From: Ochrobactrum sp. RH2CCR150
GTDB taxonomy: Bacteria; Pseudomonadota; Alphaproteobacteria; Rhizobiales; Rhizobiaceae
NCBI GenBank assembly: GCA_014138095.1
Contig: JACGXE010000010.1
Coordinates: 62,001 to 126,000, forward strand
Direction: 5' to 3'
Length of the DNA stretch: 64,000 nucleotides
Part shown: in pieces, positions 17,068-32,295 of the stretch
Layout: every line of letters begins with the position of its first letter
How positions within the stretch are numbered: the first letter of the stretch is position 1
Translations under genes and position numbers: made by a program
Notes under the pieces: model-generated
Told to the model about the DNA's origin: nothing
The model's input: the letters and a program-made list of their open reading frames with translations, nothing else
Databases searched by the model: none

Positions 17068-17907
17068 CTATTTTACGGTTTGGGGGAAGAGGAAGGTGAC
17101 GCCTGCCTTGATCCCCCATTTGGGGCCTTCCTCTGGTGCCTCCAGCCAGTATTTCGCGCCAAGCGAGAGGCTCATCGTTTGATCGCCGACCTTTACGATC
17201 TGCGAGAACGAGCCCGAAACTGGAACAGTCCATTGATCGGCTGTCCAGTCATAATCGGCATCAAGATTGGCCGATATGGTCCTGCCTTTGCCGATATGCC
17301 ACGCGATGAACGGTTGAAGTTCTGTCTGGTTCACGTCCGGTCTGCTACCGGCTCCGAGCACCGACCAGATATGGTTTGCTGACATGCCGGTCGTAATCGA
17401 ATTTGTCTGATAGAGCAGCAAACCCGACGGCCCGAGAGAAAGTTTTCCAGTGCCAAGCAGGTCGTCTGTTGCAGTCGGAATAGAAAACTGCGGACCAAAC
17501 GCCCAGATCAGGGGGCCGTGAGCTGCCGGGGTGAAGGAGAAAGTCTGCGTGATATCCCCCAGCCCAAAAGTGCCGCCCGCCTCGCCAAACGGGTTGGTGT
17601 AAACCAACGGAATATCCGTATGGGAAATGACATTCCATCGGTCATTGAACTGCATCGGAATGACAGGCTCGACATCGAGAGAAAAGCCCCGCACCTTCCC
17701 GGTTCCGCGCCCGAAATCGAGGTCTGAATGAACGGGCACACTGATCATAAACGAGGCAGGATTGGAGACTTTACGCGCAAGCTCGTCAACATCATCATTT
17801 GCAGATTGAGCGAGCGATGATACCGCCGTCGTCAGAAGCGAGATCATCGCGCCTACGATAAGTGGCCCGGTTCGTGCACGGTGCCTCGATCGCAAAAAAC
17901 ATATCAT
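17068..17907 (-). CDS. Predicted outer-membrane beta-barrel protein (neuromedin U-like/MetA-pathway family)
   Basis: This 279-residue protein has a Sec signal ending near SSLAQS, then alternating hydrophobic/aromatic strands with repeated turn patterns (FSLDVEPVIPMQFNDRWNVISH, GLGDITQTFSF, AFGPQFSIPTATD), ending in VTFLFPQ. It matches the group often mislabelled neuromedin U in bacterial genomes, predicted to form outer-membrane pores. It is the last of three envelope genes on this strand. Function and substrate are unknown. The ATG at 17907 has only a weak Shine-Dalgarno; 17847 is the alternative. Confidence 0.72.
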   Translation of the reverse strand: MICFLRSRHRARTGPLIVGAMISLLTTAVSSLAQSANDDVDELARKVSNPASFMISVPVHSDLDFGRGTGKVRGFSLDVEPVIPMQFNDRWNVISHTDIPLVYTNPFGEAGGTFGLGDITQTFSFTPAAHGPLIWAFGPQFSIPTATDDLLGTGKLSLGPSGLLLYQTNSITTGMSANHIWSVLGAGSRPDVNQTELQPFIAWHIGKGRTISANLDADYDWTADQWTVPVSGSFSQIVKVGDQTMSLSLGAKYWLEAPEEGPKWGIKAGVTFLFPQTVK

Positions 17908-17981
17908 TCAGGCGAATTCCCATATGTGCAGCCTCTACATTGAGGTCTGGCTGGAGCCTCATATGCGATACGCACAGAGCG

Positions 17982-18641
17982 CTATTTTGCCGTAGCTTGG
18001 GAGAACGCTACGCCGGTGATGCGGTCACCATCGAGACGGTAGACAAGCGATTGCTCTACCGTCGCGCCTGAAACTTTTCGCTCATTTGCATAGCGTGCAA
18101 ATTGCTTGGCCTTCACCTTCCCCAAACGTTCCTCCAGAGCATGTTTGTCATCTTTCAGAGCCGGAATGGGTAGTTTGAGACTGGTCAGATCAATACGCGG
18201 CTGATCACATTTTACAGCCTTATCCGTCACGAGTTCCGCCGAGATCAGATTAAGAACGGCGCCCTGACCCTTTCTCTTGTTCAAACCGTCCGATATGAAC
18301 CAGATCCGCCGGGGCAAATTATCCCCCTTTATCTCATAGCAAAGCCAAGCGGTCTTAACCGATGACACGGTATGGCTATGAACGGTACCGCCCGCCACCG
18401 ACTGAATTTCCTCCAGGGAGGTTTTCCCGAGCGATACCTCCTTGTCAGCCAGCCTGATCAGATTATCGAAAGGAACGCTGAATTGAACAACCGTGGCAGT
18501 AGCCGTCTCACCACTCAGAACCATGGCTGGAAAGCCACTGAGCTTGTCATTATCTGCCTGCGCCGGGGAATGCACAGAGACTGTAAATATCGTTCCAACC
18601 ACGACCGAAAATCCGGCCATTTTACCTGATCCGATATTCAT
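17982..18641 (-). CDS. Secreted hypothetical protein
   Basis: This 219-residue protein is not one I recognise. The start at 18641 has GGGAGAAGG just upstream. The N-terminus (MNIGSGKMAGFSVVVGTIFT, ending at PAQADND) is a Sec signal peptide, so the mature protein is periplasmic or secreted. It has an even mix of charged and hydrophobic residues and no transmembrane segment. A stretch KQFARYANERKVSGATVEQSLVYRLDGDRI lies near the C-terminus. It lies between two predicted outer-membrane proteins, 74 and 81 bases from them, so the three are probably one operon. Confidence 0.65.
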   Translation of the reverse strand: MNIGSGKMAGFSVVVGTIFTVSVHSPAQADNDKLSGFPAMVLSGETATATVVQFSVPFDNLIRLADKEVSLGKTSLEEIQSVAGGTVHSHTVSSVKTAWLCYEIKGDNLPRRIWFISDGLNKRKGQGAVLNLISAELVTDKAVKCDQPRIDLTSLKLPIPALKDDKHALEERLGKVKAKQFARYANERKVSGATVEQSLVYRLDGDRITGVAFSQATAK

Positions 18642-18722
18642 GCCCTTCTCCCTCATCAAGCGATATTGGAAACTGTCATGTACATGCTGTCCTGGACGAG
18701 GGCTCACATCTGCCCATAGATC

Positions 18723-19706
18723 CTAGTCTGCCGAAGCCACCGGTTTGCTCATCGAAAGAGGCATCGACAGTGTCAGAATAACTGCATCGCCTTCTGCCCG
18801 GTTTTCCGCCGCGAACTCATGGAAATATTTAACGCGGGCGGACAGTGGCGTTTCGCCCAGCTCAAAGTTCCAGCCCACTGTCGCACCAATGGCAGCCACA
18901 CGACCCTTGAACGGGGCCGCAGCCCCATCTCCACTATCGCCGGAAAGCTGCTGATAGTAATAGCCAACCAAACCCGCATCGAATTTGGCATTGATGTGTT
19001 TTACGGCTGCCCATTCAAAATGGAACTCGTTACCTGTTCTGTAGTCGGTAGCGGGGTTCTCCGCATTGAATGTCATACCGACCACACCAGAGAGATCCCA
19101 GCCGATTGCAGGGTCCAGCCAGGTTCCGGCGGCATATATGTCTGCGCCCCAATGGTGAAACGCGATATTGGAGATCTCGCCATCCTGATAATCACCAATT
19201 GGCACATTGACCATTGTGCCGACCTGGTAATGGAAATTGCCAGTCTGCCAACCAAGAAATCCACTGACGATGGGGTCACCAATGGTAAACACCGTATCCC
19301 GAACGCCCCTCGAAACCTCGCCGACGCGCGGACCATTCAAAACGACATCGGCTTCGGTCTTCTTCCACCCAAAGGGCAGCGATGCGCCTAAACCGAGTGA
19401 ACCTCCGGCAATGGTCTCTGGCAAGACCCACATTACGGTCGGAACCTCTATAGCCGCTGTTCCCGTCACACCAACGGCCAGCTTGCCACCTGTCGGAAGG
19501 CTTTTATTTCCGCCAAGATCCCCGCGATAATAGTAAAAATCGTTCTGAAAATAGACGCCGGGAGGGGGAGTTATACCCGCTGCGGGTCCCTTCGATCCCA
19601 ACAGGTAAAAACCCGCTCCTCCTTCCGCACTCATTGCAACAGATGGGACAAGCAACGATCCTGCAAGTGACCCCAGTGCCAGCATATGCAGCGAAAATCG
19701 ACCCAT
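18723..19706 (-). CDS. Outer-membrane channel-like protein (phenol-degradation 'meta' family)
   Basis: This 327-residue protein has a signal peptide (LALGSLAGSLLVPSVAMSAE) and the pattern of the MetA-pathway/SphA-like transporter family: GAGFYLLGSKGPAAGITPPPGVYFQNDFYYYRG near the N-terminus, repeated amphipathic strands, and a C-terminal LTLSMPLSMS. These are thought to be outer-membrane barrels for uptake of hydrophobic substrates. The ATG at 19706 is chosen for its GAGGGGATG Shine-Dalgarno; an earlier in-frame ATG at 19790 gives a highly charged extension with no signal. A copy of the 16-bp shared motif lies 106 bases upstream. Confidence 0.75.
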   Translation of the reverse strand: MGRFSLHMLALGSLAGSLLVPSVAMSAEGGAGFYLLGSKGPAAGITPPPGVYFQNDFYYYRGDLGGNKSLPTGGKLAVGVTGTAAIEVPTVMWVLPETIAGGSLGLGASLPFGWKKTEADVVLNGPRVGEVSRGVRDTVFTIGDPIVSGFLGWQTGNFHYQVGTMVNVPIGDYQDGEISNIAFHHWGADIYAAGTWLDPAIGWDLSGVVGMTFNAENPATDYRTGNEFHFEWAAVKHINAKFDAGLVGYYYQQLSGDSGDGAAAPFKGRVAAIGATVGWNFELGETPLSARVKYFHEFAAENRAEGDAVILTLSMPLSMSKPVASAD

Positions 19707-19811
19707 GACATCCCCTCGACTGCGAGCAAACTGCTCAGTATTCTTTCGAATCCATGAATACTTATTCTCTTGATACTCGTTTCTTTTCATATTTTGCGCA
19801 ATGTCTAATGA

Positions 19812-19827
19812 GTACGTTACGGTAAAT
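19812..19827 (-). promoter_or_regulatory. Shared 16-bp motif, copy 1 (upstream of meta-family gene)
   Basis: Read on the - strand it is ATTTACCGTAACGTAC, identical to copies 2 and 4. It points toward the outer-membrane gene starting at 19706. The TTAC-C-GTAA core is an inverted repeat. Confidence 0.75.
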
Positions 19828-19913
19828 CCTCACCGATAAAGGACTTCGCACTTCGACTTTATAAACGACAGCTCGATACGACGATCATCCAGTCGACTGA
19901 ACGTAATATATAA

Positions 19914-21605
19914 TCAATTCTGTACGGTCGGTTTGGGCAGCTCTGCCCGCGTCTGTCCAATCTGGATTTGATCCATGATGACATTCGCGACCATAGGTGG
20001 AACGCTCATTCCTTCCAGCTCGTTACCGACTGCTTGATGCAGGCCGGGATTGGATTGCGTCACATCTTTCAACTCCGCAGTGGCTTCGGTTGGTCTCAGT
20101 TGAACGAGCGCCGCCAAGCGAAATCCTAACGCCAAGTCATTCTGCGGAGGTAATTGATTGGCAAATGACAATACATCATGCCAGTCACCCCGCCGAGCAG
20201 CGTCGAGTGCGAGGACCGTGCGCGCTTTCAAAGCCATGTTGCGCTTCTGCTGTTCACTTTCGTTAATCAAGGCAATGGCTTGATCCCAGTTTTGGTTAGC
20301 AAACAGGACCAGAGCCAAGGTCGCCTTGATCTCCAGATTATTGGGATTGAGAGCCACAGCGCGCTTACCAGCCTCCAGCGCATCTTCAATCCTGCCTTTA
20401 CGAAAATTGGCGTCCATCAAGGCAAACTCGGCTCGATCAGACCACGGCGCGATAGAGACAGCATCCTGTGCAAGTTCCAGACTGCGATCGAGCGCATCTT
20501 TCGTGATGATTGGCCCGCCGGAGTTAACAAGAACACGGGAAAGAGCAGCCATTGCATCTGTCTGCCGCGGATCATATTTCAACGTCCGCTCAAGACAATT
20601 CCGGCTGTCTGATTGTACCTGACCTTTCGCCAACTCTATTTCTGCTTTAAGAACACAGACATTCCCAAAGAATTGGCTCTTAACATCCGTCGCGACCCGG
20701 CTATTGATTACGCCGTTCGCGGCCGCCAGCTTTTGAGAAAGAGCGGATGACAGAGCCGCTCGCACCTGCTCTACGGCTTGCCCCGATCCAGACACCTCTT
20801 CGACGCCTGAACTCACAATAACGTTCTTGACCTCGTCCGTTACCTGCCACCAGACGCTCCTGGTCTGGTCTGCAACCCGATACCGCATGCGTACCGTATA
20901 GGCGGGGAGCCGCATCTGGGGATCAATGGATCCGCTATCGTTGGAACGAAGTGCCAGTGTGTGAAAATTGCCAAGTGCGATCAGCAATGAATCGCGAACA
21001 TTTTCAGCCTCTAGATTAAAGGCGGGGTTCTCAGGGCTAAAGTCAATTGCAACTGTCGGTTTGACAGTGTCCGTAGAGCGATTAGTGCGAAAATAGACGA
21101 GTGCTAAAGAGATCAGCAATGCGAAACTGGCAACTGCCAGATCCATGTACTTGAGACGGCGCCTTAGGGTTAAGGGCGGCGATGATGGAGGCGGAATTGG
21201 CTCCTGCCCGACAAGAGTATCAGAAGTCGGCGTCTCAGCGGTTGTACGACGACTGAACGCCAGCGCGTACTTACCTTTTGGAAGTTCTATCTCAATCGGG
21301 TTTTCTCTACCAAATGCCTCATAATATTGCACCAGAGCAGCGCGGAGACGGCTGACTTCTATACGGACAATTGGATCGGTAGAAGGATCAAAACTGTCTG
21401 GCCGACCGAGAACATCTATCGCAATTGAATACCCTTTTACGCCGTCATCGCAACCTGCAAAGTGAAGGCCCGCGATGTAATTGAGTATGGCTTTGCCCCG
21501 ATCAGTCGCACGAAAACGCTTATCCGCAGTCAGATCAGCCAGCGCAGATTTAATTTCCTCATCTGAGATTTCTCGGTCGTCAAACGCATTACTATTCCGT
21601 GCCAT
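19914..21605 (-). CDS. Membrane-anchored TPR regulator-like protein
   Basis: This 563-residue protein has three parts. Residues 1-125 carry the conserved block common in rhizobial signalling proteins (FRATDRGKAILNYIAG, GYSIAIDVLGRPDSFDPSTDPIVRIEVSRLRAALVQYYEAFG, IEIELPKGKYALAF), which usually lies cytoplasmic at the N-terminus of CadC- or cyclase-like proteins. One transmembrane helix follows at about 158-178 (LAVASFALLISLALVYF). The rest is periplasmic with a tetratricopeptide region at about 370-500 (SVAPWSDRAEFALMDANFRKG, AVALNPNNLEIKATLALVLFA). A CadC-like one-component regulator is possible. It is the only regulator candidate between the four 16-bp motif copies, so it may control them; this is inference. 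DNA binding is not proven. Confidence 0.72.
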   Translation of the reverse strand: MARNSNAFDDREISDEEIKSALADLTADKRFRATDRGKAILNYIAGLHFAGCDDGVKGYSIAIDVLGRPDSFDPSTDPIVRIEVSRLRAALVQYYEAFGRENPIEIELPKGKYALAFSRRTTAETPTSDTLVGQEPIPPPSSPPLTLRRRLKYMDLAVASFALLISLALVYFRTNRSTDTVKPTVAIDFSPENPAFNLEAENVRDSLLIALGNFHTLALRSNDSGSIDPQMRLPAYTVRMRYRVADQTRSVWWQVTDEVKNVIVSSGVEEVSGSGQAVEQVRAALSSALSQKLAAANGVINSRVATDVKSQFFGNVCVLKAEIELAKGQVQSDSRNCLERTLKYDPRQTDAMAALSRVLVNSGGPIITKDALDRSLELAQDAVSIAPWSDRAEFALMDANFRKGRIEDALEAGKRAVALNPNNLEIKATLALVLFANQNWDQAIALINESEQQKRNMALKARTVLALDAARRGDWHDVLSFANQLPPQNDLALGFRLAALVQLRPTEATAELKDVTQSNPGLHQAVGNELEGMSVPPMVANVIMDQIQIGQTRAELPKPTVQN

Positions 21606-21653
21606 ACCACCCCTCGCGGACCCGACATGAGAATAAATTAGCTGTTTGAGATT

Positions 21654-21681
21654 AAAATAAACCCCACGCGACTATTGTCAA
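21654..21681 (-). promoter_or_regulatory. Candidate promoter of the TPR regulator gene
   Basis: On the - strand a perfect -35 TTGACA (21676-21681) and a -10 TATTTT (21654-21659) are 16 bases apart, about 49 bases before the start codon at 21605. Confidence 0.5.
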
Positions 21682-21726
21682 TATTTTCGGATAATTAAAG
21701 AACAATGTTTCATTTCGGGACGCCGC

Positions 21727-22050
21727 TTAGCGATGTGATAAGCAATATTGCAGGACATCCTCCTCGATTTCCTTACATATTGTCTCATACTCCAAGGAAA
21801 GCGGGGTGGTTTCAACTTCATCCCGCCTCAGCCTTTCCAACATATTGCTAGCTTCATCATAAGCCTCGAAAAGGCCGATCAGCGGTTCCACGGAGAATTG
21901 TTTCAACTCCGAGCGGACAGATGGAAGCTTTAACATAAGTTTACTAAGTCCGCTTCTCGACGCAGAGCTGGCGTTGCGGCGGACTGGTCCATCCTGGTTC
22001 ACTGTCCACGGATCTCCCCTCAACGGATCTTCGTATTTGAAGAATGACAT
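21727..22050 (-). CDS. Small orphan protein (107 aa)
   Basis: I do not recognise this protein. It is soluble with no signal peptide, basic in the middle (VRRNASSASRSGLSKLMLKL) and acidic and helical toward the end (YDEASNMLERLRRDEVE, EYETICKEIEEDVLQYC). No Shine-Dalgarno precedes the ATG, and the 16-bp shared motif ends only 18 bases before it, so the mRNA may be leaderless or the start may be wrong. It is divergent from the arylsulfatase gene, which has its own motif copy. The motif and clean gap favour a real gene. Confidence 0.55.
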   Translation of the reverse strand: MSFFKYEDPLRGDPWTVNQDGPVRRNASSASRSGLSKLMLKLPSVRSELKQFSVEPLIGLFEAYDEASNMLERLRRDEVETTPLSLEYETICKEIEEDVLQYCLSHR

Positions 22051-22068
22051 TAATTCGGGCGAGCGGCA

Positions 22069-22084
22069 GTACGTTACGGTAAAT
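22069..22084 (-). promoter_or_regulatory. Shared 16-bp motif, copy 2 (upstream of 107-aa gene)
   Basis: ATTTACCGTAACGTAC on the - strand, exactly matching copies 1 and 4. It occupies -34 to -19 relative to the start codon at 22050, where a promoter -35 or activator site would lie if transcription begins at the ATG. Confidence 0.78.
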
Positions 22085-22168
22085 GCAACGGGGCCATATG
22101 GTGATCTGAACGTTCACGAGCCGCACGTATAAATCAGAGTCAATGGCGCAACGCGTATATCATCGCCC

Positions 22169-22184
22169 ATTTACTGTAACGTAC
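22169..22184 (+). promoter_or_regulatory. Shared 16-bp motif, copy 3 (upstream of arylsulfatase)
   Basis: ATTTACTGTAACGTAC on the + strand, one mismatch from the other copies. It ends 126 bases before the arylsulfatase ATG. Copies 2 and 3 point away from each other, 84 bases apart, making a divergent control region. Confidence 0.75.
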
Positions 22185-22310
22185 TTACCGTCGCTTCCGA
22201 ATTGTTCGAGCCTCCCAAAGTTGCCATCGATATGAGCATCGACGACATCCCAATTTGCCTCGCGAACAGGAGCACGGAATGTTGAATACATCCATTTTGA
22301 GGAGGCCGCT

Positions 22311-23927
22311 ATGAGGAACCCCGTCATCCGCAGGCTACTTTCAGCAACCGCCGCATTTGTCATAACAGTGACCTCTGCGACGGTTGCCACACCCACTTAC
22401 GCGCAGCAAAATGCGCCCGCTGAACCCGCGGCGAAGCCGAACATCCTCGTCATTTTCGGTGACGACATCGGCCAGACGAATATCAGTGCCTATTCGTTCG
22501 GTGTCATGGGCTATCGCACTCCGAATATCGACCGGATTGCGCATGAAGGGCTGATGTTCACCGACTATTATGCCGAGAACAGTTGTACCGCAGGTCGTTC
22601 GTCCTTCATCACCGGTCAGACACCAAAACGCACTGGCTTGTCGAAAGTTGGCGTACCGGGTGCAACGGTCGGCCTGCAGCCTCGCGACGTCACCATCGCT
22701 CAGGCGCTAAAGCCTCTTGGCTATGCAACCGGCCAGTTCGGTAAGAACCACTTAGGCGACCGCGACGAGTACCTGCCGACCAATCATGGCTTTGACGAGT
22801 TTTATGGCAACCTCTACCATCTCAACGCCGAAGAGGAACCTGAAAACCCGAACTGGCCGAAGGATGATGAAGCCTTCACCAAAATGAGCACGCCGCGCGG
22901 CGTCCTCAAGGCAAGCGCTGACGGAAAAATCGAGGATACCGGTGCTCTGACAAAGAAGCGCATGGAAACCATCGATGATGAAACAACCGATGCTGCAATC
23001 GACTTCATCAAGCGCCAGGTTGACCAGAAGAAGCCCTTCTTCACCTGGATGAACACGACGCGCATGCATCTTTTCACCCATGTCCGTCCTTCAATGGTCG
23101 GCCAAAGCGGCATGACCGGCAATGAATATGCCGACGGCATGATCGAGCATGACGGCGACGTCGGAAAGCTCTTGAAGACGCTGGATGACCTCGGCGTCGC
23201 GGATAATACAATCGTCGTCTACACGACCGATAATGGACCGAACCGCTTCACCTGGCCGGACGCGGCGAACTCGCCGTTCCGTAATGAAAAGGACTCCAAT
23301 TTCGAAGGCGCCTTCCGCGTGCCCGCTATAGTCCGCTGGCCGGGCCATATCAAGCCCGGACAAGTAGCCAATGACATGTTCTCCGGCATGGACTGGTTCC
23401 CGACTTTACTGGCAGCTGCTGGCGATGCGGATATCAAGGACCGCCTTTTGAAGGGCACGAGCATTGGCGGAAAGCAGTTCAAGGTGCACCTGGACGGCTA
23501 TAATCAGCTGCCATACCTCACTGGTCAGGAAACCAAGAGCGCACGCAACGACTTCCCTTACTTCAACGATGATGGCGTTCTGGTCGCCTATCGTCTTGGC
23601 GATTGGAAAGCGGTCTTTGTAGAGATGCAGCACCCCGGTGGCTTCGCCGTGTGGCAGCAGCCCTTCACGCCGTTGCGTGTCCCCAAGCTCTACAACCTGC
23701 GTATGGACCCATATGAACGCGCCGATATCGTCTCCGATCAGTACTTTGATTGGTTGGTGAGGAACGACTTCAAGCTGGCTCAGATGACCATGCATGCAGC
23801 GGAGTTCCTGCAGACCTTCATCGAATATCCACCAAGTCAGGAACCGGCAAGCTTCTCGATTGATCAGATATCTCGCGATGTCGAGGCCAAGATCAAAGAG
23901 AACGCGGCAAAGGCCAAAGCGAACTGA
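22311..23927 (+). CDS. Secreted arylsulfatase, Cys-type
   Basis: This 538-residue enzyme has a Sec signal peptide cleaved near TYAQQN, so it is periplasmic. The sulfatase signature is SCTAGRSSFITGQ with Cys92, which must be converted to formylglycine. Further active-site features are the metal Asp pair in FGDDIGQ, KNHLGD, and YTTDNGP. It hydrolyses sulfate esters of an unknown substrate. Shine-Dalgarno GGAGG sits five bases before the ATG. The maturase it needs is encoded at 30289 in the same motif-marked region. A strong terminator follows the gene, so it is a separate transcript from the MoxR-Bat operon. Confidence 0.93.
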   Translation: MRNPVIRRLLSATAAFVITVTSATVATPTYAQQNAPAEPAAKPNILVIFGDDIGQTNISAYSFGVMGYRTPNIDRIAHEGLMFTDYYAENSCTAGRSSFITGQTPKRTGLSKVGVPGATVGLQPRDVTIAQALKPLGYATGQFGKNHLGDRDEYLPTNHGFDEFYGNLYHLNAEEEPENPNWPKDDEAFTKMSTPRGVLKASADGKIEDTGALTKKRMETIDDETTDAAIDFIKRQVDQKKPFFTWMNTTRMHLFTHVRPSMVGQSGMTGNEYADGMIEHDGDVGKLLKTLDDLGVADNTIVVYTTDNGPNRFTWPDAANSPFRNEKDSNFEGAFRVPAIVRWPGHIKPGQVANDMFSGMDWFPTLLAAAGDADIKDRLLKGTSIGGKQFKVHLDGYNQLPYLTGQETKSARNDFPYFNDDGVLVAYRLGDWKAVFVEMQHPGGFAVWQQPFTPLRVPKLYNLRMDPYERADIVSDQYFDWLVRNDFKLAQMTMHAAEFLQTFIEYPPSQEPASFSIDQISRDVEAKIKENAAKAKAN

Positions 23928-23937
23928 CATTCGAAAT

Positions 23938-23970
23938 AACGGCACGCGTTTTGGCGCGTGCCGTTTCTTC
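23938..23970 (+). terminator. Rho-independent terminator after arylsulfatase
   Basis: AACGGCACGCG (23938-23948) pairs perfectly with CGCGTGCCGTT (23955-23965) around a 6-base loop and is followed by TTCTTC. It ends the sulfatase transcript 18 bases before the moxR start, so the MoxR-Bat operon has its own promoter or depends on read-through. Confidence 0.8.
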
Positions 23971-23987
23971 GTCGACAGGAGCAAAGC

Positions 23988-24968
23988 ATGACTGCACGCG
24001 ATGATATTCTGAAACTCGGCGACCGTGTGGGCCAATCTGTCATCGGACAAGAGCAAATGGTTGAGCGCTTATTGCTGGGTGTCATTTCAAATGGCCATAT
24101 ACTTGTCGAGGGGCTTCCGGGACTAGCCAAAACCCGTGCAATCAAAAGCCTTGCAAAAAATCTCGAATCCGAACTTTCTCGTATCCAGTTCACGCCCGAT
24201 CTGCTGCCGGCCGATGTCACCGGCTCTGAAATTTACATTTCGGACGGCTCAAAGAGCGCCTTCCAGTTTCAGCAGGGACCGATCTTCGCCAATCTCATTC
24301 TTGCCGACGAAATCAACCGCGCGCCCGCCAAGGTTCAATCGGCTTTGCTGGAAGCGATGGAAGAACGACAGGTAACCGTCGGTGGAAAGAGCTATCAGTT
24401 GCCGGACCTGTTCATGGTCATGGCAACGCAAAATCCGATCGAGCAGGAAGGGACCTACCCTCTGCCCGAAGCGCAACTGGATCGCTTTCTACTTCACATT
24501 CGGGTCGATTATCCCGATGAACAATCCGAAGCCGCAATCATGCGCCTTAACAGAAGCGAAGAGCAGGAAGCCCACGACAAGGCTCCCGCAAAAGAAAAAA
24601 CTACTCGTCTATCGGCACAGAGCATCTTTGATGCGCGCACGGAAATCGGCACAATCACTGTTTCCGAGCCGGTCGAAAAATACATGGTCGCACTCGTCTT
24701 CGCGACACGTTATCCAGATCGCTATAATGCTGACCTCGCCAAGCTTTTACAGGTGGGCGTAAGCCCGCGCGGTGTGATCGCCCTTGACCGCATGTCGCGC
24801 TCCTATGCATGGTTGAAAGGCCGCGATTTTGTCACGCCGGATGACGTCAAGGCGATTGTGCACGATGTTTTCCGGCACAGGCTGCTGTTGTCCCATGAAG
24901 CACATGCATCAAACACAACGCCCGATCAAATCATAGACCGCATCACAGAACTGGTAGCCGTGTCATGA
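23988..24968 (+). CDS. MoxR-family AAA+ ATPase
   Basis: This 326-residue AAA+ protein has Walker A GLPGLAKTR, the Walker B region ILADEINRAPAKVQSALLEAMEERQ, sensor 1 in MATQNPIEQEGTYPLPEAQLDRF, and a C-terminal lid. MoxR proteins act as chaperones with von Willebrand A partners, which is exactly what follows (DUF58, BatA, BatB). The ATG at 23988 has AGGAG upstream; an earlier in-frame start at 23958 lies inside the terminator. It overlaps the next gene by four bases. Confidence 0.93.
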   Translation: MTARDDILKLGDRVGQSVIGQEQMVERLLLGVISNGHILVEGLPGLAKTRAIKSLAKNLESELSRIQFTPDLLPADVTGSEIYISDGSKSAFQFQQGPIFANLILADEINRAPAKVQSALLEAMEERQVTVGGKSYQLPDLFMVMATQNPIEQEGTYPLPEAQLDRFLLHIRVDYPDEQSEAAIMRLNRSEEQEAHDKAPAKEKTTRLSAQSIFDARTEIGTITVSEPVEKYMVALVFATRYPDRYNADLAKLLQVGVSPRGVIALDRMSRSYAWLKGRDFVTPDDVKAIVHDVFRHRLLLSHEAHASNTTPDQIIDRITELVAVS

Positions 24969-25918
24969 GTGCAGGTGCGAGCGTGGAAAACGGCGTCTAC
25001 GTAGACACATCCGCACTCGTTGCACTTGAGGCGCAAGCGCGTGATCTGAGCTTCGTGCAGAAATCGCCCAGCCACCGCCAGCTCGCCGGACGGATGCGCT
25101 CGGCTGTGCGTGGCCGCGGTCTCTCTTTCGAAGAACTGCGGGAATATCTGCCCGGGGATGATATCCGTTCCATCGACTGGCGTGTCACCGCGCGCACGAT
25201 GAAGCCGGTTGTGCGGGTTTATAGCGAAGAGAAGGAACGCCCTGCTCTCCTGATCGTCGATCAGCGCATCAACATGTTTTTCGGCAGCAGACGCGCTATG
25301 AAATCTGTCACTGCAGCCGAGTGTGCGATGCTGTGCGCCTGGCGCATTTTGGGGTCCGGTGATCGTGTCGGGGGTATCGTGTTCGGCGACACAAATACCG
25401 CACAGATCAAGCCGCAGCGCAGCCGCAATGCGGTGATCGGATTGGCAAGCCAGATCGCGGAGAAAAACGCCGCGCTGAATGCCAGTTTTGCGCATGATCC
25501 CGCGCCATCGATGCTGAATGACATTTTGCATCACGTCAGCGCCATCGCCTATCACGACTATCTTGTGATCGTTGTCAGCGATTTCGATGGCCATGACGAT
25601 ACGACCCGTGATTACTTGTTGCAGATATCAAGCCGCAACGACGTGATCTGCCTTCTGGTCTACGACCCCTTTCTGCTCGATCTCCCAAAGACCGGTGAAA
25701 TTGTGGTCAGTGGTGGCACCACACAGGCTGAACTGACCTTCGGCAAGGGCACGATGCGCAACTCTATCGATAGTTTCGCGCGCAATCGCGGGCGCGAGTT
25801 TCGTTCCTGGCAACGAGAACTTGGGCTCCCCATGCTGCCAATTTCGGCGGCAGAAGAAACCGCGCCGCAATTGCGCAATCTCCTTGAAAAGTCCATGTGG
25901 CGCCAAAGGAGACGGTAG
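24965..25918 (+). CDS. DUF58 domain protein
   Basis: This 317-residue soluble protein contains the DUF58 signature RGLSFEELREYLPGDDIRSIDWRVTAR followed by RVYSEEKERPALLIVDQ. The domain resembles a degenerate von Willebrand A fold and is almost always encoded directly after moxR. It is a presumed client or adaptor of the MoxR ATPase. It is coupled by ATGA overlap upstream, and its stop overlaps the GTG start of the next gene. Confidence 0.92.
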   Translation: MSAGASVENGVYVDTSALVALEAQARDLSFVQKSPSHRQLAGRMRSAVRGRGLSFEELREYLPGDDIRSIDWRVTARTMKPVVRVYSEEKERPALLIVDQRINMFFGSRRAMKSVTAAECAMLCAWRILGSGDRVGGIVFGDTNTAQIKPQRSRNAVIGLASQIAEKNAALNASFAHDPAPSMLNDILHHVSAIAYHDYLVIVVSDFDGHDDTTRDYLLQISSRNDVICLLVYDPFLLDLPKTGEIVVSGGTTQAELTFGKGTMRNSIDSFARNRGREFRSWQRELGLPMLPISAAEETAPQLRNLLEKSMWRQRRR

Positions 25919-26388
25919 TGGATCAAGCAACAGAAACCGCCCTACGGTCGCTCCACGATATTGCCATTCCGCCGCCTGTCTCATGGATGCCGCAAACCTG
26001 GGGATGGGGGTTGCTGGCAGCCTTGCTTCTGTTGGGAATTGCCATCCTCATTGTCCGATGGGCAATCCGCTATCGTCGCAATGCCTATAGACGTGAGGCG
26101 CTCCGCGTTCTGGAGACAATTTCCAACAATGCACCGATGACGCAATCGTCTGGAATTAAAATCGCCGAGCTGATGAAGCGCACAGCGCTATCCGCTTGGC
26201 CGCGCATCGATGTCGCAACCCTATCCGGTCGCCAATGGGTTCGTTTCCTTGAGCAGCACAGTCCAGAACCGCTCGGAACCAACCTGAAGGCGCTCCTGAC
26301 GGGTCAGGAATATGAACCGGGACCGATAAAAGACTTGCCTGTGATCGTCGGCCAGGCGCGCTTGTGGATCGAGAGGCATCATGTATGA
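25918..26388 (+). CDS. DUF4381 single-pass membrane protein
   Basis: About 156 residues. One transmembrane helix is near the N-terminus (WGWGLLAALLLLGIAILIVRWAIRY), preceded by the LHDIAIPPPVSWMPQTWGW motif typical of DUF4381 proteins of Bat operons, and followed by a cytoplasmic helical domain. I prefer the GTG at 25918, with AAGGAG 7-12 bases upstream; an ATG at 25897 would add seven residues and overlap the DUF58 gene further. It probably anchors or links the MoxR-Bat complex. Confidence 0.85.
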   Translation: MDQATETALRSLHDIAIPPPVSWMPQTWGWGLLAALLLLGIAILIVRWAIRYRRNAYRREALRVLETISNNAPMTQSSGIKIAELMKRTALSAWPRIDVATLSGRQWVRFLEQHSPEPLGTNLKALLTGQEYEPGPIKDLPVIVGQARLWIERHHV

Positions 26389-27370
26389 ACTCGATCATCC
26401 GTGGCTCTTGCTTCTGTTGCCAGTACCTTTGCTGTTCTGGTGGCTCCTGCCAAGCTATCGGGTGTCGACCGCTTCAATCAGGCTGCCCTTCTTCAAAGAT
26501 GTCGCGCGAGCAGCAGGCGTTGAGCCAACGGTAGGATCGATCATTCCACGGCGAAGCTGGTGGCAGATCGCCCTCGATCTGGTCGCCTGGGGCTTCATGG
26601 TTCTGGCGTTGGCTCGACCGCAACTGATCGAACCGCCGATTTTCAAAACAATACCACAGCGTGATATTCTGCTGGCTCTCGATCTTTCGCAATCGATGGA
26701 TACGCGCGATTTTGCAACACCAAGCGGGGCCTTGGACACGCGTATCAATGCTGTGAAAACAGTCGTCGCCGATTTCGTTGCACGACGTGCAAGCGACAGG
26801 CTGGGCTTGATCGCTTTCGGCGATGCCCCCTACCCTCTAGCGCCTTTCACGATGGACCACGATTTAATCCGGACAATGATTGGCTCACTCGTGCCGGGCG
26901 AAGCCGGTCCCAGAACGGCAATGGGCGACTCCATCGGCCTCGCCATTCGCATGTTCGAAAAAACGAACGTGCCTGAAAAGGTTCTCATCCTGCTGTCCGA
27001 TGGCAATGACACGGCCAGCAAGATGCCACCTCTGAAAGCCGCCGAGATTGCCAAAGACGACCACATCGTCATTCACACCGTTGCGATTGGCGACCCATCC
27101 GCGACGGGCGAGGATAAGGTCGACACGCAGACATTGCAGGCCATCGCCACGCAAACAGACGGGCGCTACTCCTTCGGTCAGGATCAGGCCAGTCTCGCCG
27201 CCATCTACGATATGTTGGACCGTATAACACCACAGCAACAGAAGGAATTGGCATGGCGACCACGACGGGAGCTTTTCCAGTATCCGGCTGCACTGTCGCT
27301 GATGATATTGATCTTTTCTCTTTGTCTTAGTGTTGCACAGACACGAATGTCGCGGAGAGCAGCTGCATGA
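26381..27370 (+). CDS. batA: BatA-like von Willebrand factor A membrane protein
   Basis: This 329-residue protein has two N-terminal transmembrane helices (LLLLLPVPLLFWWLL and IALDLVAWGFMVLALA), a VWA domain at about 85-280 with an intact MIDAS (LALDLSQSMD, the Thr/Asp sites, LLSDGND) and a C-terminal helix (ALSLMILIFSLCLSVA). Metal binding by the MIDAS is expected. The domain faces the periplasm in known topology models. It is coupled to its neighbours by 8- and 4-base overlaps. Bat proteins were named for aerotolerance in Bacteroides; in proteobacteria the role is envelope stress. Confidence 0.9.
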   Translation: MYELDHPWLLLLLPVPLLFWWLLPSYRVSTASIRLPFFKDVARAAGVEPTVGSIIPRRSWWQIALDLVAWGFMVLALARPQLIEPPIFKTIPQRDILLALDLSQSMDTRDFATPSGALDTRINAVKTVVADFVARRASDRLGLIAFGDAPYPLAPFTMDHDLIRTMIGSLVPGEAGPRTAMGDSIGLAIRMFEKTNVPEKVLILLSDGNDTASKMPPLKAAEIAKDDHIVIHTVAIGDPSATGEDKVDTQTLQAIATQTDGRYSFGQDQASLAAIYDMLDRITPQQQKELAWRPRRELFQYPAALSLMILIFSLCLSVAQTRMSRRAAA

Positions 27371-28923
27371 TCTCCGACTTTCACTTTCTTCGCCCCGTTT
27401 GGCTGATTTTACTGGTAGCGCCGCTCATTCTGGTCTGGCTTGCCGCGCGATCGTCGAATGTCAGGCAGAAGTGGAAAAATATGATCGCTCCACATCTGCT
27501 TGAACGGCTGGTTATCGAAGGGGATAGCAAACGGCGTTTTCAACCCGCGACACTTCTGGCGCTCATCATGGCCATCATGATCCTCGCAATCGCCGGTCCT
27601 AGCTGGGATAAGGAAACACCGCCATTCGTGCATGACACGGCGTCGCTGGTGATCGCGGTCGATCTTTCCCAGACAATGGATGCCATCGACATCAGCCCGA
27701 GCCGCATCGAACGAGCAAAGCTGAAAATCCACGATATTCTGGCAAGCCGCACTGGGGCCAGAACGGCAGTGATCGCTTATGCCGGGACCGCACATCTGGT
27801 TTTGCCGCTCACCGACGATGCCGATCTGATTAAATCCTATACCGATGCGCTTTCGACGGGCATCATGCCGCGTCCCGGCAAGGATACGACCGCCGCCCTT
27901 AGCCGTGCCACTGACCTTCTGAAAGAAGACGGTTCTTCCGGAACGATACTGTTCATGACCGATGGAGTGGAAGCTCCCGCCATTAAATCACTGAGCGATG
28001 AACGGGACAATGGCATTGTCGTATTGGTCATTGGCACAACAGATGGTGGACCAATCAAGACCGGAGATGGTGGCTTTCTTTCATCGGACAATGGTGCGCG
28101 CCTCGTTACAAAACTCGATTCTGACAGCCTGGAACAACTGCGTTCCTCCAACAATGTCGCGGTAACTACTGTCACTGACGACGACGCCGATGTTCGATGG
28201 ATCACCGCACAGATACAAGGAAACTTTGCGCAGCAGCAATCGGACAAGGATAGCCGATGGCGCGACAGCGGATGGTGGATTCTCATTCCGGCGGCGTTGC
28301 TGTTCGCCCTCACTTTCAGGCGCGGCTGGGTTGTCCGGCTGGGGAGTGTGATCATTGCGATTCATCTGATCGGAAACGATCCGGCAAGCGCTGGCACGTT
28401 CGAAGACATGTGGCTAACGCAGGATCAACAGGGGCGAATTGCTTTTCAAAACAACGACTTTTCCAAAGCTGCGAAATTGTTTCGCAACCCCATGTGGCGT
28501 GGTGTAGCCGCGTATCGAGCGGGGAGCTATCAGGATGCGATCAATGCCTTCGCCACCATCGACAGTCCGGATAGCTGGTACAACCAAGGCAATGCGTTCG
28601 TGCATCTGAAGAAGTTTGCGGAGGCTGTTTCAGCCTATGAAAAGGCGCTTCAGGCAAATCCTGCATCGGAAGATATTCAAGCCAACCTCGCGACAGCAAG
28701 ACGCCTTCTGCAAGCGCAGCAGAAAGAAGAACAGGATCAGGCGGAAGATCCGGGTTTGAAGCCCGACAGCGTCCAGTTTGATGATAAAGGCAAACAGGGC
28801 AAAGATGCCGAAATTGCCGTGTCAGAACAAACGTCCCAGATGTGGATCAAGAACATTGCCGTAAGCCCTGCAGCCATGTTGGCGCGCCGCTTTTCGATTG
28901 AAGCGGAAGGTGGTGCCAAATGA
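27367..28923 (+). CDS. BatB/BatC fusion: VWA plus TPR membrane protein
   Basis: This 518-residue protein has a VWA domain with MIDAS IAVDLSQTMD and FMTDGVE at about 90-290, flanked by transmembrane helices (near 15, 60 and 305-330). After the last helix come TPR-like repeats (SWYNQGNAFVHLKKFAEAVSAYEKALQANPASEDIQANLATARR, about 395-440) and a charged tail. In Bacteroides, BatB (VWA) and BatC (TPR) are separate; here they are one chain. It overlaps batA and the next gene by four bases each. Confidence 0.88.
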   Translation: MISDFHFLRPVWLILLVAPLILVWLAARSSNVRQKWKNMIAPHLLERLVIEGDSKRRFQPATLLALIMAIMILAIAGPSWDKETPPFVHDTASLVIAVDLSQTMDAIDISPSRIERAKLKIHDILASRTGARTAVIAYAGTAHLVLPLTDDADLIKSYTDALSTGIMPRPGKDTTAALSRATDLLKEDGSSGTILFMTDGVEAPAIKSLSDERDNGIVVLVIGTTDGGPIKTGDGGFLSSDNGARLVTKLDSDSLEQLRSSNNVAVTTVTDDDADVRWITAQIQGNFAQQQSDKDSRWRDSGWWILIPAALLFALTFRRGWVVRLGSVIIAIHLIGNDPASAGTFEDMWLTQDQQGRIAFQNNDFSKAAKLFRNPMWRGVAAYRAGSYQDAINAFATIDSPDSWYNQGNAFVHLKKFAEAVSAYEKALQANPASEDIQANLATARRLLQAQQKEEQDQAEDPGLKPDSVQFDDKGKQGKDAEIAVSEQTSQMWIKNIAVSPAAMLARRFSIEAEGGAK

Positions 28924-30206
28924 ACATCCTGTTTCGCCTCGTCATTTTCACCTTGCTTCTCACGACCAAGTTATTCGTCAACAATGCCGCAGCGCAGGAA
29001 CCCATCATACGCGCCAAAATCGAAGAAACCGGCACGATCGTGCCTGGGCAGCAAGTCCATCTCGTACTCAATGTGCTTGCTCCGGGTTTCTTTACCTCGC
29101 CACCCCAATTTCCATTATTCGCGCTTCCCCACGCTCTGGTGACTCTGCCTGACGAAAGGTCCCAGAACGTTACGGACACCATAAACGGCGTTCAGTTCAG
29201 CGGCATTCAAAAGCGCTATTCCATCATACCGCAAGTGAGCGGCAACTACGCTATTCCGACAATCCAGATTTCGTTCGACTATCTTGAAGATGGAAACCCC
29301 AAGCAAGCCACCGTGACGAGTCCACCCCTGTCTTTTACAGTCGGCGCTGCTCAGCAGGCGGGACAACCGGAATTTGCCGCCAGTTCCCTGGACCTGACGC
29401 AAAATTTCGACCGGGCACCGGACAAGTTGCAGACGGGGGATGCTCTGGTCAGAACACTGACCGTTACCGCGACCGATACGGTGGCGATCACCATTCCGCC
29501 CATCAATGTTGGAACGTCGCTAGGGCTAGACCAGTATGTGAAGCCAGCGACCATAACGGACAATGTCCCCGTTGGACGAATGACCGCAAGCCGTCGCGTC
29601 GAAACCATTGTCTATACCGCATCGAAGCCCGGTATTTTTTCGCTGCCCGCGATTTCGTATCGCTGGTTTGACGTAAAGTCGCAACAGCCTCAAAACGCAA
29701 CTCTGGCCGCGACAACTGTAACGGTCGCTCCGGGATTGGCGAAGCCATCGCCCCCCGTTGGGCCAATTGGCCACAAGTTTGCAAGTCGGCAACTCGTTTG
29801 GATAGTGGCGATAACCGTGGTTCTCATCGCAGCAGCTCTTGCGGTCGTCATGCGGTATCGGGCGCGACTTTGGAAGCTTCTGCACGACTGGGATGAGCGA
29901 CGCCAGAACTCAGCTGGCAGGCAAAAACGACAGACAGTTCGCATTATCAAAACCGGCGATTACGCACAGATCAATGCTGCTTTGGAAGTTTGGTCTCGTC
30001 GCAACGGCTACCCTTCCCTGAAGGATTGGGCTGAAACAGCGAAGGACAAGTCCCTCATCACGCAGGTCGAAATCCTGCAGCGACAGCTATATGGAAACGT
30101 CAGAGGAGAAGAGGTTGATCGCCGCGTTCTCGTTCGCGGGGTTGAGAACCGCATTTCGCATAAAAGCGCTACAAAGCCGCCTGCGCTTGTTGGGCTGAAT
30201 CCCTGA
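28920..30206 (+). CDS. batD: BatD-like protein
   Basis: This 428-residue protein has an N-terminal signal or anchor (IFTLLLTTKLFVNNAAAQE), immunoglobulin-like beta segments typical of the BatD (oxygen tolerance) family (VHLVLNVLAPGFFTSPPQFP, RYSIIPQVSGNYAIPTIQISF), a transmembrane helix near 290-315 (LVWIVAITVVLIAAALAVVM) and a cytoplasmic C-terminal domain. It completes the moxR-DUF58-DUF4381-batA-batBC-batD operon. A 16-bp motif copy begins 13 bases after its stop and belongs to the next unit. Confidence 0.87.
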   Translation: MNILFRLVIFTLLLTTKLFVNNAAAQEPIIRAKIEETGTIVPGQQVHLVLNVLAPGFFTSPPQFPLFALPHALVTLPDERSQNVTDTINGVQFSGIQKRYSIIPQVSGNYAIPTIQISFDYLEDGNPKQATVTSPPLSFTVGAAQQAGQPEFAASSLDLTQNFDRAPDKLQTGDALVRTLTVTATDTVAITIPPINVGTSLGLDQYVKPATITDNVPVGRMTASRRVETIVYTASKPGIFSLPAISYRWFDVKSQQPQNATLAATTVTVAPGLAKPSPPVGPIGHKFASRQLVWIVAITVVLIAAALAVVMRYRARLWKLLHDWDERRQNSAGRQKRQTVRIIKTGDYAQINAALEVWSRRNGYPSLKDWAETAKDKSLITQVEILQRQLYGNVRGEEVDRRVLVRGVENRISHKSATKPPALVGLNP

Positions 30207-30218
30207 CTTGTCTGTCTG

Positions 30219-30234
30219 ATTTACCGTAACGTAC
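30219..30234 (+). promoter_or_regulatory. Shared 16-bp motif, copy 4 (upstream of sulfatase maturase)
   Basis: ATTTACCGTAACGTAC on the + strand, identical to copies 1 and 2, ending 54 bases before the maturase start at 30289. It makes the maturase the start of a separately controlled unit despite the close Bat operon. Confidence 0.77.
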
Positions 30235-30288
30235 TTCCAGCCGAACAAACACAAAGGCAACCTTTTTATAATTTCGCGGAGGATGACG

Positions 30289-31254
30289 ATGGGTATGAAC
30301 GCTTCGAGCAAACGTTATTCCGAGCAGGCTTCAGACGAAATGGCCTGGATACCGGGGGGCGCATTTCAGATGGGGTCGGACAACCATTATCCTGAAGAAG
30401 CGCCGCGACATCCGGTAAAGGTGGACGGGTTCTGGATCAGCACAACACCTGTCACTAACAGGCAGTTTGCCCGTTTTGTTGAAGAGACGGGCTATGTCAC
30501 GATGGCAGAAAAAGCACCCGACCCGCGAGATTATCCCGGCGCTCTTCCCGAAATGCTGCGCGCAGGTTCACTTGTTTTCACGCCGCCGAAAAGGGTCGAA
30601 GGCCGCGATATAGGCCAATGGTGGAAATTCAAATTCGGAGCAAACTGGCGCAAGCCATTGGGCGGGCTTAGTGATTTACGCGGCAAGCTCGATCATCCGG
30701 TCGTTCACGTGGCGCATTGCGATGCACTTGCCTACGCTCAGTGGGCAGGTCTCGATTTACCGACTGAAGCCGAATTCGAGTTTGCCGCCAAAGGCGGGCT
30801 AGAGGATCTGGAATATGCCTGGGGCGACGAGCTGATGCCGGGCGGCATCGCCATGGCCAACACGTGGCAGGGCGTGTTCCCCGTAAAAAGCACGAAACCG
30901 GCTGGGCGCGAGCGAACATCACCAGTGCGGTCCTTCCCCGCCAACGGTTACGGCGTTTACGACATGATCGGCAATGTCTGGGAATGGACCAATGATTACT
31001 GGTCGACCAAACATGCGGAACCGGCGGCCAGTCCCTGCTGCATACCGCGCAATCCGCGTGGCGGCGAGGCATCGGCCAGTTTAGACCCGCAACAGCCCGA
31101 TATCCGCATCGCCAGACGTGTGCTTAAAGGCGGTTCCCATCTCTGCTCGCCCGATTACTGCCGCCGCTATCGTCCGGCTGCACGCCATGCGGAACCTGAG
31201 GACACATCCACAAGTCATGTTGGATTTCGGTGTGTGAAACGGCCAGCGAACTAA
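30289..31254 (+). CDS. Formylglycine-generating enzyme (sulfatase maturase, SUMF1 family)
   Basis: This 321-residue protein has the FGE-sulfatase domain over its length: WIPGGAFQMGSD, HPVKVDGFWISTTPVTNRQFARFVEETGYVT, DLPTEAEFEFAAKGG, YGVYDMIGNVWEWTNDYW and RVLKGGSHLCSPDYCRRYRPAARH. The two catalytic Cys of true FGEs are present as C-x4-C (residues 286 and 291), unlike EgtB or other SUMF1 relatives. It would oxidise the Cys of the CTAGR motif of the arylsulfatase at 22311. The ATG at 30289 has GGAGG six bases upstream; one at 30283 abuts that site. It has no signal peptide, so it acts before export. Confidence 0.93.
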   Translation: MGMNASSKRYSEQASDEMAWIPGGAFQMGSDNHYPEEAPRHPVKVDGFWISTTPVTNRQFARFVEETGYVTMAEKAPDPRDYPGALPEMLRAGSLVFTPPKRVEGRDIGQWWKFKFGANWRKPLGGLSDLRGKLDHPVVHVAHCDALAYAQWAGLDLPTEAEFEFAAKGGLEDLEYAWGDELMPGGIAMANTWQGVFPVKSTKPAGRERTSPVRSFPANGYGVYDMIGNVWEWTNDYWSTKHAEPAASPCCIPRNPRGGEASASLDPQQPDIRIARRVLKGGSHLCSPDYCRRYRPAARHAEPEDTSTSHVGFRCVKRPAN

Positions 31255-31264
31255 GGGGGAGTTC

Positions 31265-32239
31265 ATGCACTTGCTTGCACGGATTGTGCTGATCGTTACT
31301 TTCCAGATTTCAACATCTGCATGGACTGCAGACCTTGCCTCCTGGAATGACGGCAAGTCCAGACAGCAGATTGTCGATTTTGTCGAGAAGGTAACCAAGG
31401 AAGGCAGCAAGGATTACGTCGCGCCTGCCGACCGGATCGCAGTGTTCGACAATGACGGTACGCTCTGGACAGAGCACCCCTATTATTTTCAACTGGCCTT
31501 CATGCTGGACCGCGTCAAGGCACTGGCTCCCGATCATCCGGAATGGAACACAACAGAGCCGTTCAAGTCAATCCTGGCGGGGGAGTTGGCTGGCATCGCG
31601 AAAAGCGGTGAAAAGGGTGTTGTCGAGCTTGGCATGGTGACCCATGCCGGCATGACAACGGACGAATTCAACAAAATCGTCACGGATTGGTATGCAACGG
31701 CCAAGCACCCTAAAACGGGCAAGCCATTTGCGGAAATGACATTCCTGCCCATGCGCGAACTGCTCGATTATCTGCGCGCTCATGACTTCAAGACATTCAT
31801 TGTGTCGGGCGGCGGTGTTGAGTTCATGCGTCCCATGACCGAGAAGGCCTATGGCATCCCCTCGGAACAGGTGATCGGGAGCAGCATCAAAACGCAATAT
31901 GCCCTTGAAAATGACCAGCCCGTCCTGAAACGTTTGCCAGAGATCGACTTCATCGACGACGGCCCCGGCAAACCGGTGGGTATTAACCGGGTCATCGGCA
32001 AAAGGCCGATTTTCATCGCGGGCAACTCGGATGGTGACTATGAAATGCTGCGATGGGGCACTGCCTCTCCTAACAGCTTGGGCATCATCATCCATCACAC
32101 CGATGCAGACCGGGAATATGCCTATGACCGGCAATCTTCATTCGGGAAATTGGACAAGGCTCTGACCGAAGCTCCGCAAAGAAATTGGGTAGTCGTCGAC
32201 ATGAAGAACGATTGGAAGAAGGTCTATGCCTTCGAATAG
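31265..32239 (+). CDS. Periplasmic HAD-family phosphatase
   Basis: This 324-residue protein has a signal peptide (IVLIVTFQISTSAWTAD), followed by HAD motifs: AVFDNDGTLW (nucleophile Asp in DxDGT), FIVSGGG (motif II Ser) and IAGNSDGDYEML (motif IV acids). It resembles phosphoserine phosphatase-like secreted HADs and probably hydrolyses a phosphomonoester in the periplasm. It begins 11 bases after the maturase stop with GGGGGA upstream, so it is probably co-transcribed. A role together with a sulfatase suggests mineral-ester scavenging or envelope remodelling; that is inference. Confidence 0.88.
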   Translation: MHLLARIVLIVTFQISTSAWTADLASWNDGKSRQQIVDFVEKVTKEGSKDYVAPADRIAVFDNDGTLWTEHPYYFQLAFMLDRVKALAPDHPEWNTTEPFKSILAGELAGIAKSGEKGVVELGMVTHAGMTTDEFNKIVTDWYATAKHPKTGKPFAEMTFLPMRELLDYLRAHDFKTFIVSGGGVEFMRPMTEKAYGIPSEQVIGSSIKTQYALENDQPVLKRLPEIDFIDDGPGKPVGINRVIGKRPIFIAGNSDGDYEMLRWGTASPNSLGIIIHHTDADREYAYDRQSSFGKLDKALTEAPQRNWVVVDMKNDWKKVYAFE

Positions 32240-32295
32240 TCCGCTCATCCCACACGTCATCATTCGTGGACCATAAACACTCAAGGAGGACTCCA

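Follow-up and report, generated by a model that had tools for sequence, protein, structure and literature searches.

The 17-bp motif RTTACNGTWACGTACTT is found four times in a cluster of sulfatase, sulfatase-maturation and envelope genes within a 64,000-nt stretch of the genome of Ochrobactrum sp. RH2CCR150 (contig JACGXE010000010.1, positions 62,001 to 126,000; this whole stretch is called the window below). From sequence comparison and structure prediction, we consider it likely that a single regulator uses all four copies as operators. It would be the tetratricopeptide repeat (TPR) protein encoded at 19914-21605, a membrane-anchored one-component activator of the CadC/ToxR design. The assignment draws on the sites, how well they are conserved, their linkage to the regulator gene, the distance at which a −10-like element follows them and the fold predicted for the protein.

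The original prediction described four copies of a 16-mer, ATTTACCGTAACGTAC (one of them with one mismatch), all intergenic and all pointing to the following gene. Their coordinates and strands were all correct, and the list of open reading frames (ORFs) places the four copies as described. Absence of any other full copy from the window was borne out at ≤3 mismatches, as was the claim that the arrangement is very unlikely by chance: 0.16 matches to ATTTACCGTAACGTAC are expected in the window at ≤3 mismatches, and four copies were reached in none of 100 dinucleotide shuffles. The proposed length had to be revised, since the conserved unit is 17 bp long rather than 16; similarly, the 9-bp inverted repeat noted earlier is present, but it is only the inside of an 11-bp dyad, GTWAC-N-GTWAC, on which RTTACNGTWACGTACTT is built and whose left half is degenerate in the window copies. 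A search of the source genome (5.54 Mb, 40 contigs) at ≤2 mismatches returned the four window copies plus C13:45915 and C27:14049, and the reversed control pattern gave one match. At 3 mismatches the 17-bp pattern yielded noise (45 matches versus 129 for the reversed pattern). In its longer form, the C13 copy (C13:45913-45929) lies over the called start of a DUF1254/DUF1214-family gene, about 50 nt inside the longest frame; it is probably a further regulon member, because genes of this family also follow sites in G024 (L071) and in Agrobacterium pusense (L251). A site with one mismatch, outside the window at C10:134961-134977, stands before a gene whose product shares 26% identity with the 279-aa protein of the cluster.

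Linkage of site and regulator was analysed in 79 loci. Seven regulator queries had given 161 pattern-matching stretches, 132 of which were confirmed as relatives; the best 80 of these were kept, and 79 loci had record titles. RTTACNGTWACGTACTT at ≤2 mismatches produced 96 matches in 35 of the 79 loci, compared with a single match for the reversed pattern. Eight of the 35 matching loci are Brucella genomes that had contributed to the pattern (30 matches and the one control match); the other 27 hold 66 matches. Homologues of the TPR protein are encoded next to the site in Brucella, Rhizobium, Ensifer, Agrobacterium and Pseudochrobactrum. An independent test came from six plasmid loci of new species, chosen among the 25 records listed (of 42), that had played no part in defining the pattern: all six were matched, with 22 matches versus none for the reversed pattern. 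In the five that are annotated (the sixth is not), 18 of the 19 sites have an annotated start ≤200 nt downstream in the same orientation. Among 60 genomes, a motif match was present in 10 out of 10 with a close regulator homologue and in 2 further genomes without one. Finally, a regulator-blind search for the exact motif in 397 genomes of the order found matches in four genomes (reversed pattern: five), two of which, the source genome and G060, are regulon loci. A single exact match each in G222 and G411 is no more than chance would give, and both genomes lack a close regulator (best 3e-29 and 1e-6, respectively); matches without the trailing TT in G020 (C22), G002 (C76) and G031 were set aside as chance. 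The G222 match may be a fragment of a regulon, since the DUF900 hydrolase gene before it has its own 1-mismatch site and L147 likewise has a DUF900 gene behind a site.

The carriers of the cluster, among them B. haematophila, B. tritici, B. cytisi, B. thiophenivorans and Ochrobactrum teleogrylli, place the source organism in the Brucella genus, on the Ochrobactrum side. The cluster is accessory in this genus, a close regulator homologue (E<1e-40) being found in 10 of 35 genomes, source genome included. Five relatives (G016, G017, G021, G024 and G030) have kept sites before the 107-aa gene (termed orph107), the sulfatase, the maturase and the outer-membrane gene; in G016 the site at the outer-membrane gene has 2 mismatches. 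In four others (G001, G002, G010 and G020) gene order is changed and several of these genes are again preceded by a site; in G001 and G010 a site precedes MoxR where MoxR heads its own operon. Conservation upstream of orthologues, proposed earlier as a check, is thus seen even where gene order differs, and the random scatter that would have spoken against a regulon is seen neither in the source genome nor in the order-wide search. The TPR gene at 19914, named in the original prediction as candidate controller, is the best supported one: all 10 genomes with a close homologue of it have a motif match (in G020 probably by chance, see below), it recurs beside the site in other genera and has a predicted winged helix-membrane helix-TPR layout.

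Sites were also counted by gene in 43 sequences (the window, 39 named loci, L077, L224 and L225), a gene being scored when a site or core lay ≤300 nt upstream; a match was left out if it lacked the first quarter of the query (a rule not applied to orph107), as was any gene with <350 nt of sequence upstream, and related species were counted separately. It appears that sites mark the heads of operons and not internal genes. A site or core precedes orph107 in 36 of 41 cases (30/41 for the oriented 17-bp site alone), the formylglycine-generating enzyme (FGE) in 25 of 27, the sulfatase in 20 of 25 (15/25 for the oriented site alone), the outer-membrane gene in 9 of 15 and MoxR in 6 of 18. There is none before the regulator (0/42), DUF58 (0/22), DUF4381 (0/22), vWA1 (0/25), vWA2 (0/20) or BatD (0/18), and sites are rare before the HAD gene (1/27) and the genes for the 241-aa (1/7) and 279-aa (2/10) proteins. 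Seven of the 12 MoxR genes without a site directly follow the sulfatase (the window and six Brucella loci).

The distance between the motif and a −10-like element is nearly constant. An A at +39 together with a T at +43, counted from the motif start (xAnnnT at +38), occurs in 34 of 85 non-redundant sites; at other offsets the same pair averages 4.2 occurrences and does not exceed 11 (neighbouring offsets left out), and the maximum in 500 shuffles was 13. The stricter TANNNT is found at +38 in 17 of 78 sites, and neighbouring offsets score 0 or 1. With a −10 element at +38 to +43 and a 17-bp spacer, the −35 hexamer would fall at +15 to +20, over the CTT[AC]C of the motif, and position 18 is seldom the G of a canonical −35 (0.14). 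Additional GTWAC half-sites number 44 in the 100 nt upstream and 3 in the 100 nt downstream. Activators that substitute for a poor −35 element, as in PhoB- and CadC-type activation, have such spacing and upstream half-sites. Because the −10-like element is over-represented at exactly 38 nt from the motif start, we favour an arrangement in which an activator would overlap and replace a weak −35 element.

The candidate regulator is predicted to be CadC-like: a winged-helix-like N-terminal DNA-binding domain (DBD; residues ~12-120), a disordered linker, a membrane helix (~152-175), an alpha-beta part (184-294) and a TPR part (299-555). Hydropathy analysis gives one peak, at 154-172 (score 2.12; next elsewhere 1.05), as expected for a single membrane helix. 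At E≤0.001 Pfam reports only TPR-type families, plus a weak HrpB1_HrpK row over the same stretch, and no receiver domain. A PDB profile search with the DBD had 0 matches at E≤10, and CadC is absent from the 50 structure-comparison rows listed for the full model, which are mostly TPR proteins. Of the 25 plasmid records listed (of 42), 13 annotate the regulator, always as 'hypothetical protein'. Topic searches of the literature, whose coverage did not extend to subscription papers and preprints, listed no paper describing the regulator or the operator; in text searches the motif 15-mer had no match, and 11-mers matched only papers that, by title, concern expansins, Chlamydia, zebrafish and Spironucleus.

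We propose that the winged-helix domain, presumably located in the cytoplasm, would bind the dyad GTWAC-N-GTWAC-GTACTT and that the single membrane helix would anchor the protein. The alpha-beta and TPR part would face the periplasm and might sense a signal tied to sulfated material or to the state of the envelope; periplasmic sensing and the nature of the signal are guesses from gene content (Cys-type sulfatase, maturase, outer-membrane protein and MoxR/Bat-like operon). Since the site ends on the −35 region, the bound regulator could contact RNA polymerase and raise transcription. Its targets would be its own orph107-regulator operon, the sulfatase-MoxR-Bat operon, the sulfatase maturase operon and the outer-membrane protein operon. 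Copy 2 is probably the autoregulation site, because orph107 directly precedes the TPR gene on the same strand.

The same regulator bound to the same dyad could instead be a repressor, the sites blocking the promoter until a signal arrives. The sites do overlap the presumed −35 region, and autoregulation and dyad operators are common among repressors; however, the near-exact spacing of TANNNT, the position of the extra half-sites upstream and not downstream, which is that of −35-replacing activators, and the scarcity of the canonical G at position 18 make repression unlikely in our view. The original prediction had left the choice between a common activator and an alternative sigma factor. The shared regulon is supported and the activator is favoured, whereas we give very little credence to the motif being a promoter element of an alternative sigma factor. 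Several unlinked promoters do share it, oriented and near genes, but it is a dyad accompanied by a separate sigma-70-like −10, an element expected to be lacking under that explanation, and its linkage is to the TPR gene. Moreover, no sigma factor occurs among the 30 window genes scanned by Pfam (the scan did not include some 25 other probable genes). A TetR-type reading of the dyad was dropped, as no such gene is present among the same 30.

It is also improbable that the sites are bound by another protein, either orph107 or an unlinked factor sharing the phylogeny of the cluster. In favour of orph107, its gene adjoins that of the regulator on the upstream side in 37 of 42 loci, and in G010 (L078) a site is followed by an orph107-like gene, and the 18 kb read there contain no regulator. 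On the other hand, no orph107 was detected at E 1e-4 in G052, Bosea and four Rhodobacterales loci, all of which combine a DBD homologue with a site or core, and orph107 belongs to no Pfam family, whereas the TPR protein has a predicted winged-helix-like domain.

Several observations weigh against an activator of this kind acting at these sites. In the window itself only the orph107 site (1/4) has xAnnnT at +38, and the maturase promoter has TATAAT at +48, ten bases beyond. Five of 25 sulfatases, 6 of 15 outer-membrane genes and 12 of 18 MoxR genes lack a site; five of these 12 MoxR genes belong to a clade with a different, AA-type flank (see below) and are unexplained. No GTACTT-type site was found in 44 of the 79 regulator loci (6 of the AA-flank clade and 38 more distant homologues), and the match counted for G020 is probably due to chance, the genuine sites beside its regulator being variants with 2-3 mismatches. 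As for the protein, the DBD is matched by no Pfam or NCBIfam model, Foldseek with the DBD model returned nothing at E≤0.001, and orientation in the membrane is read from a weak charge bias flanking the helix (4 versus 3 K+R), the place of the C-terminal part in the chain being compatible with a periplasmic sensor. An exact core was not found within ~1.5 kb of any of 13 distant DBD homologues from outside the source genome.

The core of the motif extends to other clades. In loci of the R. leguminosarum/Agrobacterium type (L135, L137-L141 and L157) it carries the flank AANCTTG instead of GTACTT and lies before and after the regulator gene; in 47 loci the core gave 34 matches versus 7 for the reversed one. 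R. johnstonii 3841 also has a homologue, with a flank variant of its own. DBD residues 67 and 89 (G67, A89) vary in step with flank type, which is confounded with clade. In G052, from another family of the order and one of the two genomes with a motif match but no close regulator, a site is located between a regulator homologue (26% identity) and a divergent Orn/Lys/Arg decarboxylase gene, followed by an Asp-Al_Ex permease gene (L086:8223-14784). In Bosea a gene (L154:9914-10525) codes for just the N-terminal domain and a coiled-coil-like tail. Its product has no membrane helix as judged by eye, and the gene has an outer-membrane protein homologue and two core sites as neighbours. On this evidence the domain seems to behave as a separate module. 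A class-wide search found the DBD in 10 of 240 genomes. Two of the 13 distant homologues mentioned above have a core with one mismatch within ~1.5 kb, and the reversed core at one mismatch occurs too; the core lies at −105 in all four Rhodobacterales loci, whose upstream regions are 87% identical overall, so that the support is weak. On balance we lean towards the view that the N-terminal domain represents an unrecorded DNA-binding family of alphaproteobacterial membrane-anchored (in Bosea, soluble) regulators, that its clades recognize related dyads differing in the flank (GTACTT, AANCTTG) and that one branch governs an accessory sulfatase-maturation and envelope regulon on chromosomes and plasmids.

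The genes of the cluster are listed in Table 1. The active-site motif of the sulfatase and the two cysteines of the maturase are those of a formylglycine-dependent sulfatase system, and the Pfam families agree. Judging from the ORF list, the 241- and 279-aa genes probably share the operon of the outer-membrane gene. The 107-aa gene, formerly labelled an orphan, is not isolated, given its place directly before the TPR gene on the same strand; its product could be a cytoplasmic co-component of the regulator. With a −10 element at +38, the called ATGs of orph107 (22050) and of the outer-membrane gene (19790) would lie at or before the transcription start, so both starts have probably been called too far upstream. 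Better starts may be the GTG at 22002, after GAGGGGAGA, for orph107 and, for the outer-membrane gene, the ATG at 19706, which comes after GAGGGG and is followed by a signal-peptide-like stretch.

Table 1. Putative operators and genes of the cluster (window coordinates)
Feature	Position	Strand	Remarks
Putative operator copy 1, TTTACCGTAACGTACTC	19810..19826	-	Precedes the Phenol_MetA_deg outer-membrane gene; orthologous site in five Brucella relatives, one as a 2-mismatch form
Putative operator copy 2, TTTACCGTAACGTACTG	22067..22083	-	Precedes orph107-TPR regulator
Putative operator copy 3, TTTACTGTAACGTACTT	22170..22186	+	Precedes the arylsulfatase-MoxR-Bat-like operon
Putative operator copy 4, TTTACCGTAACGTACTT	30220..30236	+	Precedes the FGE gene
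Genes for the 241- and 279-aa proteins, behind the outer-membrane gene	17068..18707	-	No Pfam family
Outer-membrane protein, Phenol_MetA_deg family	18723..19790	-	Pfam E 2e-56
Candidate regulator, 563 aa	19914..21605	-	TPR by Pfam; rest by predicted model
orph107, small protein	21727..22050	-	No Pfam match; directly before the regulator gene
Arylsulfatase, Cys-type	22311..23927	+	Active site CTAGR at residue 92
MoxR AAA ATPase, DUF58, DUF4381, two VWA proteins, BatD-like	23958..30206	+	Bat-like operon behind the sulfatase
FGE (maturase)	30283..31254	+	GGSHLCSPDYCRRYR at 283, with what we take to be both catalytic-region cysteines
HAD hydrolase, DUF2092 protein, 225-aa protein	31265..33740	+	Downstream of the maturase

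Further copies of cluster genes were encountered. Contig C13 of the source genome contains a second regulator homologue split in two frames (L067:6897-8227), ~10 kb from the 2-mismatch site at the DUF1254/DUF1214 gene. The regulator frame is interrupted in O. teleogrylli (L118), B. tritici (L119) and B. cytisi (L146), where the sites persist; many neighbouring genes are split too in B. cytisi, so that assembly errors are possible. Second sulfatase and outer-membrane gene loci, again with sites, lie elsewhere in the genomes G016 (L087:5028-8112) and G024 (L072:7763-10321).

The pairing of an unannotated regulator class with a defined operator would make regulons readable from genome sequence in many rhizobia. 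It would also explain, in a way that can be tested, how formylglycine-dependent sulfatases come to be induced jointly with their maturase in this group, and would add a candidate DNA-binding domain to the transmembrane transcription regulators (TTRs).

How does the regulator compare with known systems? The predicted fold of its DBD may resemble that of OmpR/PhoB response regulators, and pho boxes overlap the −35 element as the sites here would, but it differs from these proteins in having no receiver domain. With the TTRs it shares a one-component design with a membrane region; the TTR census relied on Pfam DNA-binding models (PMC10269533) and, as these are blind to the present domain, it would presumably not count it. 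Like the co-component cassettes ToxR/TcpP and VtrA/VtrC (PMC9214523), the locus would encode a membrane-tethered activator together with a small partner gene, here orph107; a difference is that inspection by eye reveals neither signal peptide nor membrane segment in orph107, which is, on present evidence, not a periplasmic partner. The predicted design is like that of CadC of Escherichia coli, for which, as for ToxR-like receptors, PMC5430869 describes this design and a quasi-palindromic promoter site; the periplasmic part of CadC is an alpha-beta sandwich plus a TPR domain (PMC9214523). The predicted order of winged helix, linker, single membrane helix, alpha-beta and TPR parts and the quasi-palindromic site at the promoter match this description, and the distant homologue in G052 has genes for a basic amino-acid decarboxylase and a permease as neighbours, as CadC does. 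The differences are that the DBD lacks a Pfam or NCBIfam match and a predicted N-terminal beta sheet, that the presumed targets are sulfatase, maturase and envelope genes and that a defined GTWAC dyad would form the operator, while for CadC a preference for AT-rich DNA is described (PMC5430869). Sequence and model together would place the regulator with the ToxR/CadC kind as a variant rather than as a proven member.

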